A stretch of DNA of 56,912 bases from Halococcus agarilyticus (lineage in GTDB: Archaea > Halobacteriota > Halobacteria > Halobacteriales > Halococcaceae): NCBI RefSeq assembly GCF_000334895.1, contig NZ_BAFM01000019.1, positions 1-56,912 of the forward strand, read 5' to 3'. The position numbers and the translations under genes were made by a program. Positions 42,408 through 54,261 of this stretch are shown piece by piece. The notes under the pieces were generated by a model. It made no database searches. It was not told the origin of the DNA and was given only the letters and a program-made list of their open reading frames with translations. Positions within the stretch are counted from its first letter, which is position 1, and every line of letters starts with the position of its first letter.

Positions 42408-43697
42408 ATGACCCGGGTCATCGTCGTCGGCGGCGGGCTCGCGGGCCTGGTCGCGGCCCGTCACCTCGGCCGCGCGGGGATCGACGTCCAGATGTTCGAG
42501 CGCCGAGAGGCGGTCGGCGGCCGCGTTCGGAGCCGCCACGAGGACGGGTTCGTTCTCGATCGTGGCTTCCAGGTGTTGTTCACGGCCTACCCCGCCGCGA
42601 AGCGCGAACTCGATCTCTCCTCCCTCGACCTCCGCGAGTTCACGCCCGGCGCGACGATCGCGCGGCCGGGACACCGAACCACCCTCGCCGACCCGCTCCG
42701 CGATCCCGGCTCGCTCACCGAAACGCTGTTCAACCGCGATCCCACGCTCTTCGACAAGCTCCGGGTGCTCTCGCTCCGCCGCGAGTTCGGCGAACGGGAC
42801 GAGGCCGACCTGTTCACGGGCGAGGACCGATCGATCCGCGCACTCCTCGCCGATCGGGGATTCTCGGAGCCGTTCGTCGAGCGGTTTTTCGCCCCCTTCT
42901 ACGGCGGGATCACGCTCGATCGGAGCCTCTCGACCTCGGCCGCGGTGTTCGGCTACACCTTCCGGATGCTCGCCGAGGGATCGATCGCGATCCCCGCCGA
43001 CGGAATGGGCGCGATCCCCGCACAGCTCGCCGACGCCGCCCGCGACGCCGGAGCCGAAATCGCGCTCGATACGCCGGTCGAGACGATCGAAACCGATGGT
43101 TCGGCCGGTGAGAACGTTGCCTCGAACAGCGGCGCGACCGTCGAGACCGATAGCGAGACCCACACGGCGGACGCGGTCGTGGTCGCCACCGATCCACGGG
43201 CCGCCAGGGACCTCACCGGCGTCGCGTCGATCCCGACCGACGCCCGCGGCTGCGTGACCCAGTACTTCTCCTTCCCCACTCACGACGCGCTCGACACCGG
43301 TCGGAAACTCCTGCTCAACGCCGAAGAGGACGGCCCGAACCACGTCGCACCGCTTTCGGCGGTGGCCTCCGAGTACGCTCCCGAGGGCCGGGAACTCCTG
43401 AGCGCGACCTTTCTCGGCAATCCCGACGAGAGCGACGACGAACTCGCCAGACAGGTCGAGCGGACGCTCGCAGCGTGGTACCCCGAGCGACGCTTCGACG
43501 ACCTCGCCCATCTCCACACCGACCGGATCCCGTTCGCTCAGATCGCTCAGCCGCCTGGCTTCTATCGCGACACGCCGGCCGTCGACGCTCCGGATGGATC
43601 GGTCTATCTCGCCGGCGATCACACCCGGTGGTCGTCGATCCACGCCGCGATGGACAGCGGTCGCGCGGCCGCCCGCGCGGTCCTCGACTCAGAGTAG
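42408..43697 (+). CDS. FAD-dependent amine-oxidase/phytoene-desaturase-like oxidoreductase
   Basis: 429 aa. The N-terminal FAD motif VIVVGGGLAGLVAARHLGRA with the E of FERREAVGGRVRS is a Rossmann dinucleotide fold. The C-terminal FAD segment is GSVYLAGDHTRWSSIHAAMD. The family covers protoporphyrinogen oxidase, phytoene desaturase and amine oxidases; substrate cannot be chosen. Its 3' end overlaps the convergent metallophosphoesterase gene by nine bases. Confidence 0.87.
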   Translation: MTRVIVVGGGLAGLVAARHLGRAGIDVQMFERREAVGGRVRSRHEDGFVLDRGFQVLFTAYPAAKRELDLSSLDLREFTPGATIARPGHRTTLADPLRDPGSLTETLFNRDPTLFDKLRVLSLRREFGERDEADLFTGEDRSIRALLADRGFSEPFVERFFAPFYGGITLDRSLSTSAAVFGYTFRMLAEGSIAIPADGMGAIPAQLADAARDAGAEIALDTPVETIETDGSAGENVASNSGATVETDSETHTADAVVVATDPRAARDLTGVASIPTDARGCVTQYFSFPTHDALDTGRKLLLNAEEDGPNHVAPLSAVASEYAPEGRELLSATFLGNPDESDDELARQVERTLAAWYPERRFDDLAHLHTDRIPFAQIAQPPGFYRDTPAVDAPDGSVYLAGDHTRWSSIHAAMDSGRAAARAVLDSE

Positions 43698-44378
43698 CTC
43701 CCGGAACGCACCCAGGGGAGGGAATTCGACCGTCTCCTCCGCGTCCTCGTCGCGGACCACGGGCCGGAACCGATCGATGTCGGTGACCAGCGGCGAGCGT
43801 TCGAGCGTTCCGCGACCGTGGCCACCGTTGACCGCGACGCCGCCCGCGAGCCGGGTGAACGCCGGGAGAACCAGCACGTCCGCGCCGCAGTAGACGCCGT
43901 TGCCGAGGAGATAGCAGGGCCAGTCGTCGCCCTCGATAGCGATCTTCGGGTGGTCGTGACCGACGACGTATCGCTCGGCCTCGCGCTCGGGCGGTTCGTG
44001 GCCGTGGAGAATGGTCGTTTCTCCCGCAGAGAACGCGGCCGGGGCCGGGCCGTCCCAGACCCCATCGAGCATCGTATCGTGGTTGCCCGATGTGATGACC
44101 AGCCGTGCGCCAGCCTCCTCGACGCCTGCTTTGACCTCCCGAAACGTCTCGCGCGCCGCGGCCGGAACGTGTGAAAAGGCGTGGAGCACGTCGCCAGCGA
44201 GGACGACCGTCGCGGGCGAAAACCGCTCGCACAGCGCGCCGATCCGCGACGGAACGTCGGTCTCGGGGAGCGGCACCTCGACGTTCGCGCTCGCGCCGCG
44301 CCCGAGATGGAGGTCCGCGAGCACGAGCGTATCGCTCTCGGGGAGGTGGACCGCCCGGTCCGCGAACGCCACGTCCAT
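43689..44378 (-). CDS. Metallophosphoesterase (ligase-associated/archaeal type)
   Basis: 229 aa. Metal-binding motifs: LVLADLHLGRG (DxH), VVLAGDVLHAF (GDxxH), ITSGNHD (GNHD) and LHGHEPPE plus VVGHDHP (GHxH). This is the compact archaeal calcineurin-like phosphoesterase group. Substrate unknown. An in-frame GTG at 44447 would lengthen it by 23 residues; ATG at 44378 gives the common family start, so the N-terminus is unsettled. Confidence 0.87.
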   Translation of the reverse strand: MDVAFADRAVHLPESDTLVLADLHLGRGASANVEVPLPETDVPSRIGALCERFSPATVVLAGDVLHAFSHVPAAARETFREVKAGVEEAGARLVITSGNHDTMLDGVWDGPAPAAFSAGETTILHGHEPPEREAERYVVGHDHPKIAIEGDDWPCYLLGNGVYCGADVLVLPAFTRLAGGVAVNGGHGRGTLERSPLVTDIDRFRPVVRDEDAEETVEFPPLGAFRELL

Positions 44379-44444
44379 CACCCGGCCTCCGGGCGCGAAA
44401 CGGATAGCCCCGACGAACGGATGCGACTCGTTACCGCCTTTCGT

Positions 44445-44484
44445 CACACTCTTATTACAATTGCTAGTGTGTCACACTATGTGA
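44445..44484. promoter_or_regulatory. Shared divergent promoter with nested GTCACACT repeats
   Basis: The element CTTATTAC (44450-44457) reads as a TATA box in both directions (GTAATAAG on the minus strand). It is flanked by GTCACACT (44443-44450) and by the near-palindrome AGTGTGTCACACT (44466-44478), then TGTGAC. The plus-strand spacing (26 nt) fits the GTG at 44481. These repeats could bind a regulator of both divergent genes. Confidence 0.45.
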
Positions 44485-45185
44485 CGACCACCGATCCGTT
44501 CGGTCGCGCCATCCGCGACTTCCATCGCGGCGAACAGGACGAACCGCTGATCGATCGGGACGGCGCGACGACCCGTGACCACCCGATCGAGGAGTTCTAC
44601 TTCGGCGAATTCGACCCCGAGAGCGACGCGGGCGCGTGGCGCGCGTCGTGGCTCGACGGACCGCTGCTCGACATGGGTGCGGGCCGGGACGCGCTCTACT
44701 TCCAAGAACGCTTCGAGACAGTCGCCATCGAACCGTCGGCACACCTCGTGGCAACGATGCGCGAGCGCGGCGTCCGCGACGCCCGCGTCGGGGACATGTT
44801 CGCGCTCCGCGAGACGTTCGACCGCGACCGGTTCGGGTCGGCGCTCGCCATCGGCACCCAGGTGGGGCTCGCGGGATCGATGCAGGGACTGCGCCGGTTT
44901 CTCGGTGACCTCGCGTTCGTGACGACGCCCGACGCGAGCGCGGTGCTCGACGGCTACGATCCCGACTGGGAGGGCGAGGACCTGCTCGGCTACCGTTCCG
45001 ACCCGACCCCAGGCCTCGCCCACCGGGTGCTGCACTTCGAGTACGGGGACGAGGTGGGCGAAACACTACATTTCCGCCTGTTCAGTCCCGATCGTGTCCG
45101 CGAGGCGGCCGTCGGTACTGGCTGGAGCGTCGCCGAAGTCCGAACCGACGCCGGCTACTACCGCCTGGCGCTGACGAAGGCGTAG
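44481..45185 (+). CDS. Class I SAM-dependent methyltransferase
   Basis: 234 aa from GTG at 44481. Motif I LLDMGAGRDALYFQER (E/DxGxGxG-like) and the following AIEPSAHLVATMRERGVRDA fit the SAM-binding Rossmann fold. The C-terminal LHFRLFSPDRVREAAVGTGW completes the fold. Target unknown; haloarchaea carry many such proteins. The earlier in-frame GTG at 44469 is possible but spacing from the TATA box favours 44481. Confidence 0.85.
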   Translation: MTTTDPFGRAIRDFHRGEQDEPLIDRDGATTRDHPIEEFYFGEFDPESDAGAWRASWLDGPLLDMGAGRDALYFQERFETVAIEPSAHLVATMRERGVRDARVGDMFALRETFDRDRFGSALAIGTQVGLAGSMQGLRRFLGDLAFVTTPDASAVLDGYDPDWEGEDLLGYRSDPTPGLAHRVLHFEYGDEVGETLHFRLFSPDRVREAAVGTGWSVAEVRTDAGYYRLALTKA

Positions 45186-45227
45186 TTTGGGATCGTGGAA
45201 CACCCGTTCGACCGCGCCCGCGACGCG

Positions 45228-45821
45228 CTACCCGGCGTGTTCTTTCGCGGTCGTGTACGCCTCGCGCACCCGGCGAAACTCCTCGTGATCGCCGCCGTGA
45301 TCCGGATGGACCTGCTTCACCTTCTCGCGGTAGGCCGTCTTGACCTCGGCGACGCTCGCGCCTGCCGGGAGGCCGAGCACCCCGAAGGCGGCGTTCGCAG
45401 GATCGACTCCGGTGCCTTCGTCGAGTGCGAGATCGGGGGTGTCGAACGGCAGTCGCGAACCGAGATGAACACCGGGGAGTTCGTGCTCGACGAGAACGGC
45501 GTGCGTCTCCGCACGCTGGATCCGGTAGTACGCCCGTGCGTCGAACGTGATCGCGACGTCATGCTTCGGGAGATAGAAAGCAACCGCCTCGCCACAGACC
45601 GGATGCTCCTCGGCGAACGGCTCGTCGATCGACTGGAGATACTCGCGGATCTCACGCCGGCGCTTTCCCTCGCCGGTGAGCCGCGCCGAATGCCGTACTG
45701 TGGTCGGGAACAGTCGCGCGCCGACGACGAACACGCTCGCGACGACCACGATGGAGCCCAGGGCGAGGATCGCGCTGAGAACCAACCACTCGGACAGCAG
45801 GGCGGTCACCGCTTCTGACAC
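45228..45821 (-). CDS. Membrane-anchored protein with C-terminal J domain (DnaJ)
   Basis: 197 aa. An N-terminal helix (LVLSAILALGSIVVVASVFV) anchors it; the middle has a soluble alpha/beta region with HPVCGEAVAFYLPKHDVAIT. Residues ~140-197 form a J domain: AAFGVLGLPAGASVAEVKTA and KVKQVHPDHGGDHEEFRRVR with the HPD triad. It would recruit DnaK (Hsp70) to the membrane. The longer frame from 45884 is rejected because an ACTAATAAG box (45843-45851) lies ~26 nt before the GTG at 45821. Confidence 0.83.
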   Translation of the reverse strand: MSEAVTALLSEWLVLSAILALGSIVVVASVFVVGARLFPTTVRHSARLTGEGKRRREIREYLQSIDEPFAEEHPVCGEAVAFYLPKHDVAITFDARAYYRIQRAETHAVLVEHELPGVHLGSRLPFDTPDLALDEGTGVDPANAAFGVLGLPAGASVAEVKTAYREKVKQVHPDHGGDHEEFRRVREAYTTAKEHAG

Positions 45822-45842
45822 GCCCGACGGTAGGCGTCGCCG

Positions 45843-45851
45843 ACTAATAAG
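45843..45851 (-). promoter_or_regulatory. TATA box of the J-domain gene
   Basis: On the minus strand CTTATTAGT, centred about 26 nt before the GTG at 45821, so a leaderless mRNA is expected and the 63-nt-longer ORF is not the gene. Confidence 0.5.
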
Positions 45852-46020
45852 CGACTCGACGGGTGTTCGGATCGATGAACTCAACCTATACAGTACCCTG
45901 AATTGTGGTTGTTCTACGGTCTTATGTTTTGAAGTATACTATTCCGCAGTTCTGGAAACGTCGAACAGTCATCTAAACATCAATTGAAGCGACACTCCAG
46001 CGGGCGGAGAGCGTTGGCCG

Positions 46021-51075: not shown

Positions 51076-51246
51076 ATGCCGGACGACGACGAACGGCAGC
51101 TCGCCGAGGACAGTCCGCCGCGGATGGTGCTGTGCCAGCGCTGTAGCGAGGCGTTCGACTGGCGCGAGGAGTCGTGTCCGCACTGCGGGTGGGAGAAAGC
51201 CGAGTGGACCGACGAAGGTCGGTACGGCCTCGCACGATCGGATTGA
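51076..51246 (+). CDS. Small zinc-ribbon protein
   Basis: 56 aa. Contains two CxxC pairs: VLCQRCSEAFD and ESCPHCGWEKAEW. This is a rubredoxin-like/zinc-ribbon fold common in haloarchaea. It may bind zinc and a protein or nucleic-acid partner; function unknown. The ATG at 51076 fits a GTTTTGGTACC element ~26 nt upstream; in-frame ATGs at 51049 and 51064 are less likely. Confidence 0.75.
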   Translation: MPDDDERQLAEDSPPRMVLCQRCSEAFDWREESCPHCGWEKAEWTDEGRYGLARSD

Positions 51247-51258
51247 GCGGCGACTGGC

Positions 51259-52008
51259 TCAGTCCGCCCCTTCGACGCCGTTGCGCGCCTCGTTGAGTGC
51301 CGAACAGATGCTTCCCTGCCCGGTCGCGTTCGTCTTTGCAAGCCGCGCACGATGCTGCACGCGATCGAACTCGTCGGGCGAAATCGGCTCGCCCTCGGGC
51401 GTCGCAAACAGCCGGTCCGTCGGGCCGGTCACGAGACCGGTCGCCGCCGCTTTCCGAAGGTACTCGACCACCGGATCCGCCGACACCGACACCACGAGAC
51501 CACCGTCGGCGAGCGAGACGAGTGTCTGCTCGTCATCGAGGGAGACGTCCGCACGCCGGAGCGCGGCGATCTGTTCGGGGTCGATCCCGGCATCGAGCAG
51601 CGCCTCGATCGCGCGGTACTGCCGACCCATCCGGGCCTTCTCGTCGAGCGTTCGTCGCACGTCCGCGAGGCCGTCCTCGGCGTCGGGGAAGGCGTCCTCG
51701 AAGGCCAGCCTCTCGTTCACGCCGTGGTTGATCTCGTCTTCGTGCATGTGGTCTCTGAGCCGGACCACGCACTTCTCGACGTCCGGAAGGGCCGACACTT
51801 CGTCGCGCGCGCCGGTCGCCATCATCCACGCGAACGCGGGCGAACACCACGCCGTCGGCAGCACGAGCTCCACCGTCACCACGGACGCATCGATGGCGAG
51901 GTCGCGGATGTAGTCGAGTTCGACGATCGACTCGTCGAGTTCGGGATCGTCGACTCGATCGAGCCGGTCACGGACGGCGGCCTGTGTCGGACGGGTAGTT
52001 GTCGCCAT
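51259..52008 (-). CDS. DUF59/MIP18-type metal-sulfur cluster assembly-like protein (alkane-monooxygenase-cluster type)
   Basis: 249 aa. The N-terminal half is a DUF59/MIP18 fold: VDDPELDESIVELDYIRDLA and VTVELVLPTAWCSPAFAWMM with a conserved Cys. The second half (LRDHMHEDEINHGVNERLAF, RQYRAIEALLDAGIDPEQIA) matches, as I recall, the longer DUF59 proteins encoded beside bacterial soluble propane monooxygenases, thought to help assemble their metal centre. It overlaps the amidohydrolase stop by one base (TAATG). The proposed function is inference. Confidence 0.83.
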   Translation of the reverse strand: MATTTRPTQAAVRDRLDRVDDPELDESIVELDYIRDLAIDASVVTVELVLPTAWCSPAFAWMMATGARDEVSALPDVEKCVVRLRDHMHEDEINHGVNERLAFEDAFPDAEDGLADVRRTLDEKARMGRQYRAIEALLDAGIDPEQIAALRRADVSLDDEQTLVSLADGGLVVSVSADPVVEYLRKAAATGLVTGPTDRLFATPEGEPISPDEFDRVQHRARLAKTNATGQGSICSALNEARNGVEGAD

Positions 52009-53063
52009 TAGTCGTCGGCGGCGGTCTCCCCGTACTGTTCACCCATGTCGAACTCCGCGCTGATGGCGTCGTCGTGGAGCTCGTCCTTTTTTGCCTCGAT
52101 GTCGATATCGTAGAGCTCCGCGGCGTTTTCGCCCATGATCTTCTTCTTCACGTCGTGAGTGAGTTCGACACCGAACTCGGCGCGCTGGTCCGCGGTGAGT
52201 TCGGCGTCCATCACCGCCTCGACCACCCATTCGGGCTCCCAGAGCGCGTAGTCGCTCCCGAACAAGAGGTTGTCCTCGCCGACCCAGAAGAGGAGCTCGC
52301 CCATGATCTCGCCGAACTTCCGCGGGCGTGCATGTGCCATCGGCGCGACGACCGCCAGCCCGCCGTAGACGTTGGTCTCCTGGGCTCCGATGTGGGCGAA
52401 GTCGTCGAACCGGGGGAACCCGACGTGCTCGACGATGAAATTGAGTTCCGGGAACGACGTCGCGGCGTCGTCCACGTCGGCCACGTCGAAGGCGTCACGA
52501 TTCAGGGGGCGGATCGTCGGTCCCTTGTGGGCGTGAATGTTCGTGATTCCCAACTCGGCGCACTTTTCGAGGTAGTCGAACGATTCCTCCGAATCGAGCC
52601 GCCACCCTTTCGAGTCGCCGTTCCACTCGGCGGTGTACAGTTTGACACCCTGAATGTCGTGTTCGTCCTTCTGGCGTTCGAGCTCTTCGAGCCCTGTCTC
52701 GCCCTCGCGCGGGTCGAATCGTCCGTTGAGGACGAACCGTTCGGGGTACTCCTCCGTGAGGTGGGCGTTGTCCTCGATGGTGTTGAACCCGTCCTCGTAG
52801 AACTCGCCGAGATACGTCGGCTGGAAGATGCCCATGTCCGCGTGGCCGTCCCGGAAGAGGTCCTCCACCATCCGATCGGCGCTGTACTGGCGATACTCGT
52901 CCATGTCCCAGAGGCGCTCCTCGGGTGTGAACGCCGAGTGATAGTCGTAGAAGCACTGAATGAACTGTTCGCCTCCCTCGTGGACGATGTTCTCCTCGCT
53001 CGCATCCCAGTGATGGATGTGCGAATCGATGACGAACACGTCCTCGCCGTCGTGCCGGTACAT
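52008..53063 (-). CDS. Amidohydrolase-2 (TIM-barrel metal-dependent hydrolase) of the propane-monooxygenase accessory type
   Basis: 351 aa. The N-terminus MYRHDGEDVFVIDSHIHHWD has the metal-binding HxH. Further metal/active-site segments are GVKLYTAEWNGDSKGWRLDS, NIHAHKGPTIRPLNRDAFDV (His), NFIVEHVGFPRFDDFAHIG (His) and LLFGSDYALWEPEW (catalytic Asp). The sequence closely follows, from memory, the amidohydrolase encoded within actinobacterial propane monooxygenase operons. Its substrate is unknown. The ATG at 53063 is used because an AAGATATATT box at 53092-53100 lies about 30 nt upstream; the frame extends further but not as family sequence. Confidence 0.88.
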   Translation of the reverse strand: MYRHDGEDVFVIDSHIHHWDASEENIVHEGGEQFIQCFYDYHSAFTPEERLWDMDEYRQYSADRMVEDLFRDGHADMGIFQPTYLGEFYEDGFNTIEDNAHLTEEYPERFVLNGRFDPREGETGLEELERQKDEHDIQGVKLYTAEWNGDSKGWRLDSEESFDYLEKCAELGITNIHAHKGPTIRPLNRDAFDVADVDDAATSFPELNFIVEHVGFPRFDDFAHIGAQETNVYGGLAVVAPMAHARPRKFGEIMGELLFWVGEDNLLFGSDYALWEPEWVVEAVMDAELTADQRAEFGVELTHDVKKKIMGENAAELYDIDIEAKKDELHDDAISAEFDMGEQYGETAADD

Positions 53064-53091
53064 GGCGAATGATGAATGGTCACACGCAACA

Positions 53092-53097
53092 ATATAT
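53092..53097 (-). promoter_or_regulatory. TATA box of the amidohydrolase-DUF59 operon
   Basis: ATATAT (minus strand AAGATATATTG context) about 30 nt before the ATG at 53063. It is in the 157-nt divergent gap shared with the alcohol dehydrogenase gene, so both directions may be controlled together. Confidence 0.45.
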
Positions 53098-53220
53098 CTT
53101 TGGCAATTTTTCGGCATAGTCAGCCGTAGTTTCGTTCGGACGGGTTGTGTGGCCGGTTGACGCCACGGATGGACGTCACGAACACTTTTGCCGATGACCG
53201 GAGTACCGGTGTGTGCTACC

Positions 53221-54261
53221 ATGCAAGCAGCCAGGCTCCACGAGTACACCGAGGAGATGGACGACGCGCTCGCGATCGACGACGTCGACGCGCCGCAGGT
53301 GAGCCGGGCCGATCACGTGGTCGTCGACATCGAGGGGGCAGGCTGGTGCCAGACGGACAACCACGTCATCGAGGGGATGTGGGAGCAGTATATGCCCCAG
53401 AATCTCCCGATGATCCTCGGCCACGAGAACGCCGGCACGGTAGTCGAAGTCGGCGACGGCGTCTCGGTGGTCGCGGAGGGCGACCAGGTGATCTGCCACC
53501 CGGTAATGACTTGCGGCACCTGCCGTCCCTGTCGGCTCGGCGAGGACATGTACTGTGAGAACGTCGCCTTTCCGGGGCTCAGTACTGATGGGGGGTTCGC
53601 CGAGTCGCTGCTCACGAACGAGCGTGCCGTCATCCCGCTGCCCGACGGCATCGACACCACCGACATCGCGCCTCATGCCGACGCGGGCATCACGGCCTAC
53701 CACGCGGTGAAAAAGGCCGTCGACGAGCTGAATCCGGGCGATCACGCGGTCGTCGTCGGGATCGGTGGGCTCGGCCACATCGGGCTGCAGTGTCTCGACG
53801 CGATGAGCGCCACTACCATCACCGCGGTCGATCTCAAGGACGGCGCGCTCGATCTGGCGACCGATCTCGGGGCGCATCACACCGTGAATCCCGACTCGGC
53901 GGACGTCGCGAGCGAGATCGAATCGATCACCGACGGCGTCGGCGCACAGCAAGTGCTCGACTTCGTCGGTAGCGACGCGACCACCGCGCTCGCACCCGAT
54001 GTCGTCGCGGCCGGCGGCGACCACCACGTCGTCGGCTACGGCGGTCACGTCCACGAACCCGCCCAGGCGCTCGTCAACGGCGAGTTCAGCTATCGTGGCA
54101 CGCTCGTCGGCCAGTACACCGAACTCCAGGAGCTCGTCGCGCTGGTCGAACGCGGCGACGTCGATCTCCGGACCTCTCGGTACGGGCTCGACGAGATCAA
54201 CGACGTCGCCGCGAAGCTCGAGCACGGCGAGATCGAGGGTCGGGCCGTTATCACGCCCTGA
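53221..54261 (+). CDS. Zinc-dependent alcohol dehydrogenase (medium-chain, NAD(P)-type)
   Basis: 346 aa. Catalytic zinc ligands: GWCQTDNHVIEG (Cys) and GHENAG (His-Glu). The structural zinc loop is intact: CGTCRPCRLGEDMYC. The cofactor fold is VVVGIGGLGHIGLQC. It oxidises alcohols to ketones or aldehydes. Starting with MQAARLHEYTEEMDD, it resembles alcohol dehydrogenases placed in propane monooxygenase clusters, where the alcohol would be a secondary product such as 2-propanol; this specificity is inference. The ATG at 53188 is a less likely longer start. Confidence 0.92.
   Translation: MQAARLHEYTEEMDDALAIDDVDAPQVSRADHVVVDIEGAGWCQTDNHVIEGMWEQYMPQNLPMILGHENAGTVVEVGDGVSVVAEGDQVICHPVMTCGTCRPCRLGEDMYCENVAFPGLSTDGGFAESLLTNERAVIPLPDGIDTTDIAPHADAGITAYHAVKKAVDELNPGDHAVVVGIGGLGHIGLQCLDAMSATTITAVDLKDGALDLATDLGAHHTVNPDSADVASEIESITDGVGAQQVLDFVGSDATTALAPDVVAAGGDHHVVGYGGHVHEPAQALVNGEFSYRGTLVGQYTELQELVALVERGDVDLRTSRYGLDEINDVAAKLEHGEIEGRAVITP

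Follow-up and report, generated by a model that had tools for sequence, protein, structure and literature searches.

Halococcus agarilyticus carries, in a window of 56,912 nt (the whole stretch of DNA that was analyzed, contig NZ_BAFM01000019.1), a trio of genes predicted to encode a zinc alcohol dehydrogenase (ADH), an Amidohydro_2 protein (hereafter, the hydrolase), and a DUF59 protein (positions 51259–54261). Genes for the hydrolase and the DUF59 protein have long been noted beside prmABCD and mimABCD, where the natural reading is that they are helpers of the monooxygenase, and no paper was found that assigns a role to either protein. The question raised by the locus is whether the trio serves a monooxygenase in this archaeon or has a function of its own.

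The Trio in Halococcus agarilyticus

The layout described in the sequence-only reading, namely a DUF59 gene that overlaps the hydrolase gene and an ADH gene that diverges from both, was confirmed by the coordinates and by Pfam (Table 1). Every Pfam assignment was above its cut-off, including 155 bits for the hydrolase against the Amidohydro_2 model (cut-off 26.4) and 48 bits for the DUF59 protein against the FeS_assembly_P model (cut-off 23.5). The stop codon of the hydrolase gene and the start codon of the DUF59 gene share 1 nt (TAATG). The gap between the hydrolase and ADH genes is probably a divergent promoter region, and it contained the AT-rich AGATATATTG about 30–40 nt ahead of the hydrolase start and CGAACACTTTTG, which by eye is BRE/TATA-like, about 30–45 nt ahead of the ADH start. 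A 56-aa zinc-ribbon-like ORF (CQRC...CPHC; 51076–51246, + strand) was located between a photolyase gene and the DUF59 gene.

Table 1. Coordinates of the trio and of its divergent gap in the window.
Feature	Position	Strand	Details
DUF59/MIP18-type protein	51259-52008	-	249 aa; PF01883 E=1.5e-12
Amidohydro_2 TIM-barrel protein (hydrolase)	52008-53063	-	351 aa; PF04909 E=4e-45
Divergent gap, hydrolase/ADH	53064-53220		157 nt; putative promoter
Zinc-dependent medium-chain ADH	53221-54261	+	346 aa; PF08240/PF00107

Distribution and Linkage Among Haloarchaea

Across a class-wide sample of 292 haloarchaeal genomes from 77 genera, the hydrolase was found at 65–85% identity in 87 genomes (about 30%). 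The DUF59 protein had an identical phyletic pattern, being encoded by exactly these 87 genomes, and the pattern was scattered over 35 of the 77 genera. Among 67 non-redundant haloarchaeal loci, the two genes were adjacent and co-directional in every one, which shows that they form an obligate pair. The orthologous ADH was more widespread (157 of 292 genomes), and it was present in 86 of the 87 pair-bearing genomes versus 71 of the 205 others (Fisher p ~1e-28, although the genomes are related and thus not statistically independent). The single pair-bearing genome that lacked the ADH was 93% complete. At the level of gene order, 49 of the 67 loci had a divergent ADH gene less than 300 nt from the pair (gaps of 95–252 nt), and seven had one across a wider gap; the ADH gene was directly downstream at three loci and outside the examined stretch at eight. 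Five sampled genomes among these eight (G014, G116, G178, G256, and G283) encoded the ADH elsewhere. The pair is therefore almost confined to genomes with an orthologous ADH, and the genes usually lie back to back. This asymmetry, in which the pair needs the ADH and not the reverse, fits a route where the ADH supplies or uses a metabolite of the pair.

Search for a Monooxygenase and a Chaperonin

The BMM hydroxylase family (PF02332) was absent from the genome of H. agarilyticus (3.48 Mb, 97.9% complete), and the same search returned matches in the Paracoccus, Gemmobacter, and Thermomicrobium replicons that served as positive controls. A GroEL-type chaperonin was likewise absent from this genome, in which all three PF00118 proteins were thermosome subunits. 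The sequence-only reading had noted that no monooxygenase, reductase, or chaperonin gene lies in the window. Its suggestion that the monooxygenase may lie elsewhere found no support in the search, and neither did alkane oxidation, which it had also proposed; the trio is widespread in haloarchaea without BMM. PF02332 was detected in only three of the 292 haloarchaeal genomes, and none of these belonged to the 87 trio genomes, which supports the second alternative of that reading, a role of its own for the set.

Comparison With Bacterial Loci

All three families recur in bacterial prm/mim (group-V SDIMO) operons, as the sequence-only reading had stated. On plasmids from Paracoccus, Gemmobacter, Ponticoccus, Caballeronia, Aminobacter, and Bradyrhizobium, genes for hydroxylase alpha and beta subunits, a reductase, and a coupling protein preceded relatives of the hydrolase (54–57% identical) and of the DUF59 protein (~30%); GroEL came next, and most of these operons also included an ADH of the same kind. 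The same gene set has been stated for prm clusters (PMC4428276; PMC6849523). The haloarchaeal hydrolase was ~48–57% identical to the operon copies and the DUF59 protein ~26–33%. The ADH fell into an MDR subclade with the ADHs of the bacterial operons and with ADH 1h2b from Aeropyrum pernix, the nearest solved structure, whereas its three nearest paralogues in the genome fell outside this subclade. HvADH2, an ADH that has been studied in Haloferax, was modelled with formaldehyde dismutase as the template (27% identity). The haloarchaeal trio and the group-V operon (prmABCD/mimABCD) thus share the three families, the adjacency of the hydrolase and DUF59 genes, and the ADH subclade. However, the haloarchaeal trio lacked hydroxylase, reductase, coupling protein, and GroEL, its ADH gene was divergent instead of part of the operon, and it formed a single archaeal clade on a long stem.

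Bacterial loci without BMM were also identified, comprising a trio in Thermomicrobium and pairs in Peribacillus and Rhizobium N324. These contexts were drawn from plasmid records; a contig search with one sequence matched haloarchaeal copies only. The IclR-DUF59-amidohydrolase-ADH cluster on the megaplasmid of Thermomicrobium roseum resembled the haloarchaeal trio in that it had no adjacent monooxygenase and had an IclR neighbor, as in some haloarchaeal loci, but it is bacterial and co-directional, and the megaplasmid also carried a BMM at a distance of ~370 kb. No ADH gene was found near the Peribacillus and Rhizobium N324 pairs, which were followed by a DJ-1/PfpI gene and by a gene annotated as lactoylglutathione lyase, respectively. 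In the hydrolase tree, a long stem with full support (100/100) set the haloarchaeal copies apart from the others, and the nearest sequences, weakly placed, were the monooxygenase-free Peribacillus and Thermomicrobium copies (80/43 and 95/69).

Predicted Structure and Candidate Metal Ligands of the Hydrolase

The predicted structure of the hydrolase was a TIM barrel (pLDDT 82). The nearest solved folds were dihydroxybenzoate and 5-carboxyvanillate decarboxylases, LigJ hydratase, ACMSD, and the oxygenase SfbO (8sm6), at about 12–18% identity (Foldseek). A sequence search of the PDB with the hydrolase alone gave no matches, and a search with its profile gave one weak match. H15, K141, H179, H213, and D271 did not vary among 22 diverse hydrolase sequences, and H17 was almost as conserved; the invariant residues also included R218, R246, and K180. 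In the model, H15/H17, K141, H179, and H213 were on or at the ends of beta strands 1, 4, 5, and 6, and D271 was at the expected eighth; these six residues are candidate metal ligands. HxH, beta4 Lys, beta5 His, beta6 His, and beta8 Asp are arranged like the ligands of subtype-I amidohydrolases, in which the lysine is carboxylated. A binuclear metal site is nevertheless offered only as a hypothesis because homology to dihydroorotase is not established. The hydrolase shared HxH, beta5 His, beta6 His, and beta8 Asp with the ACMSD, dihydroxybenzoate decarboxylase, and LigJ hydratase branch of PF04909, but it was only ~13–18% identical to these enzymes and had the invariant beta4 Lys. TIGR00856 matched three of the 22 hydrolase members weakly. 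E. coli PyrC was considered as a direct homologue and was rejected, as the hhalign alignment was not significant. In the Peribacillus hydrolase (L005), Ala replaced the second His of HxH (DSHVAIWD), and given this substitution at the equivalent of residue 17, its metal site may differ.

The DUF59 Protein

The DUF59 protein contained an N-terminal FeS_assembly_P domain (residues 10–79) with an invariant Cys55, and an extra C-terminal domain (residues ~113–243) that was confidently modelled and had no Pfam match. An N-terminal DUF59 domain with a conserved Cys is also found in the assembly factors PaaD, SufT, and CIAO2B (MIP18). PaaD, for instance, partners the di-iron oxygenase PaaABC. In contrast to these factors, the haloarchaeal protein has the additional domain of ~130 residues, and its obligate partner is an amidohydrolase. 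The C-terminal domain weakly resembled the catalytic fold of tyrosine recombinases (XerA 5hxy and XerD 5dcf; Foldseek probability 0.94–0.98, E 0.05–0.16).

Gene Neighborhood and Regulators

Comparison of the neighborhoods revealed no metabolic neighbor beyond the trio that was common to most haloarchaeal loci. An IclR regulator was located beside the trio copies in L063, L067, L068, L099, and L102, as well as in Thermomicrobium, and a bacterio-opsin-activator-type regulator was located beside the copies in L001, L002, L054, L070, and L081. These regulators suggest an inducible catabolic function. Downstream of the pair, phosphoesterase and DnaJ-like genes (43689–45884 in the window; clusters 8 and 9) were found, which recurred in the loci of several haloarchaeal families, suggesting an old and conserved chromosomal site. 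Other copies were plasmid-borne. L067 and L068, from different haloarchaeal families, shared a cluster of a sugar-type ABC transporter, a solute-binding protein, SDR, DUF849 (beta-keto acid cleavage-like), and IclR about 1.3–7.6 kb upstream of the hydrolase gene; this transporter-SDR-DUF849 cluster was set aside as a functional clue, being present at two loci only and having its own regulator. A GroEL-like neighbor in L120 was rejected as a MimG-type chaperonin because its sequence was thermosome-like.

Proposed Function and Alternatives

The trio is widespread and its genes travel together in archaea that lack the monooxygenase, and it must therefore have a job of its own; an obligate pair in about 30% of the sampled haloarchaea points to a function that is independent of the monooxygenase. 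It is an old, self-standing module rather than what is left of an alkane operon. In the explanation that we favor, with roughly even confidence, the trio is a self-contained catabolic (or detoxifying) module of haloarchaea that operates with no di-iron monooxygenase and probably completes the degradation of a small alcohol, ketone, or acid. The ADH would interconvert an alcohol and its carbonyl and would feed the metal-dependent Amidohydro_2 enzyme, which may hydrolyze, hydrate, or (de)carboxylate a compound that belongs to this short pathway, and in which the invariant Arg218, Arg246, and Lys180 could hold a carboxylate. The DUF59 protein may be a dedicated assembly factor for the metal site of the hydrolase, which is the simplest guess because the pairing is obligate. 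Zn or Mn is the usual metal of the characterized members of PF04909. To our knowledge, none of them needs an Fe/S assembly factor, and this counts against the DUF59 protein as a maturase of the hydrolase. Furthermore, many genomes have the ADH and no pair, and the tie between the two could thus be less close than in a pathway of two steps. Bacteria would have joined the pair to a propane/acetone monooxygenase whose product enters the step of the pair. Haloarchaea thus provide a clean system for finding the substrate of the pair, and the role of the bacterial pair can be tested without the monooxygenase.

A more specific version of this pathway, in which the substrates of the trio are C3 hydroxyketones derived from acetone (acetol and methylglyoxal) or their acids, appears rather unlikely. 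In Actinomycetospora, the Adh1 of the Mim cluster has been proposed to oxidize acetol to methylglyoxal, and the amidohydrolase of the cluster was abundant, with a share of 3.2% in the proteome table for 2-HIBA/acetone (PMC7176365). The DJ-1/PfpI and lactoylglutathione lyase annotations beside the Peribacillus and Rhizobium N324 pairs agree with such a substrate, but neighbors of this kind were found at these two BMM-free loci only, and the haloarchaeal loci lacked them. It is also conceivable, if doubtful, that the pair is a new metalloenzyme/maturase couple. The DUF59 protein would then equip a PF04909 enzyme that has a beta4 lysine with iron or with a mixed-metal site, the reaction would be unlike those of the known Zn/Mn PF04909 enzymes and of the amidohydrolase-related oxygenases (AROs), and bacterial propane oxidizers would have taken over the step as essential to alkane/ketone catabolism.

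It is improbable that the hydrolase and the DUF59 protein instead form a pair that matures or activates the ADH (or other metalloproteins) and raises its metal loading under some condition. The dependence of the pair on the ADH, the conserved divergent layout, and the membership of DUF59 in an assembly-factor family would all be expected of such a pair. However, many genomes keep the ADH without the pair, Peribacillus and Rhizobium N324 have the pair with no ADH nearby, and the hydrolase retains a full set of conserved catalytic-type residues.

The "amidohydrolase" could itself be an oxygenase with an Mn/Fe or di-iron site, similar to AibH2 and SfbO, with the DUF59 protein helping to load iron. 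DUF59 proteins do partner other di-iron oxygenases. The hydrolase and the dinuclear oxygenases AibH2, SfbO, and PtmU3 share the PF04909 TIM barrel, SfbO was among the Foldseek matches, and ARO-like sequences occur in haloarchaea (PMC10401708). In contrast, the active-site residues argue against an AibH2-type role, which seems quite improbable. The ligands of AibH2 are Asp25, His27, His211, Glu265, Asp337, and His340 (PMC7782822), and a motif comparison did not find this six-ligand set (D-x-H, H, E, and D-x-x-H) in the hydrolase. Throughout the 22 sequences, the beta6 residue was the invariant His213 instead of Glu, and the position three residues after D271 was of the Leu/Ile type and never His, so that both the beta6 Glu ligand and the D-x-x-H motif of these oxygenases (PMC7782822, PMC10401708, PMC10811679) were missing. 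An adjacent Rieske ferredoxin accompanies 90% of AibH2-like proteins; no Rieske gene was annotated within 12 kb in the Halorarius and Halomicrococcus loci (L001 and L002).

The view of the trio as an accessory part of a propane or short-chain alkane monooxygenase system, with the hydroxylase encoded elsewhere in the genome, is largely refuted and highly implausible. The same three families do occur in genuine bacterial prm/mim operons (hydrolase ~55% and DUF59 ~30% identical; PMC4428276), but the nearly complete genome held no PF02332 and only thermosomes as chaperonins, no trio genome had a BMM, and the three haloarchaeal BMM loci were tmo-like and had no copy of the hydrolase. These three loci, identified by eye from sequence, were operons with alpha and beta subunits, Rieske, and coupling proteins. 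An extradiol-dioxygenase-like gene and IclR were found nearby in L123 and L124, and KatG was close to the operons in L109 and L123. In L123, a transposase gene was located between the beta and alpha subunit genes.
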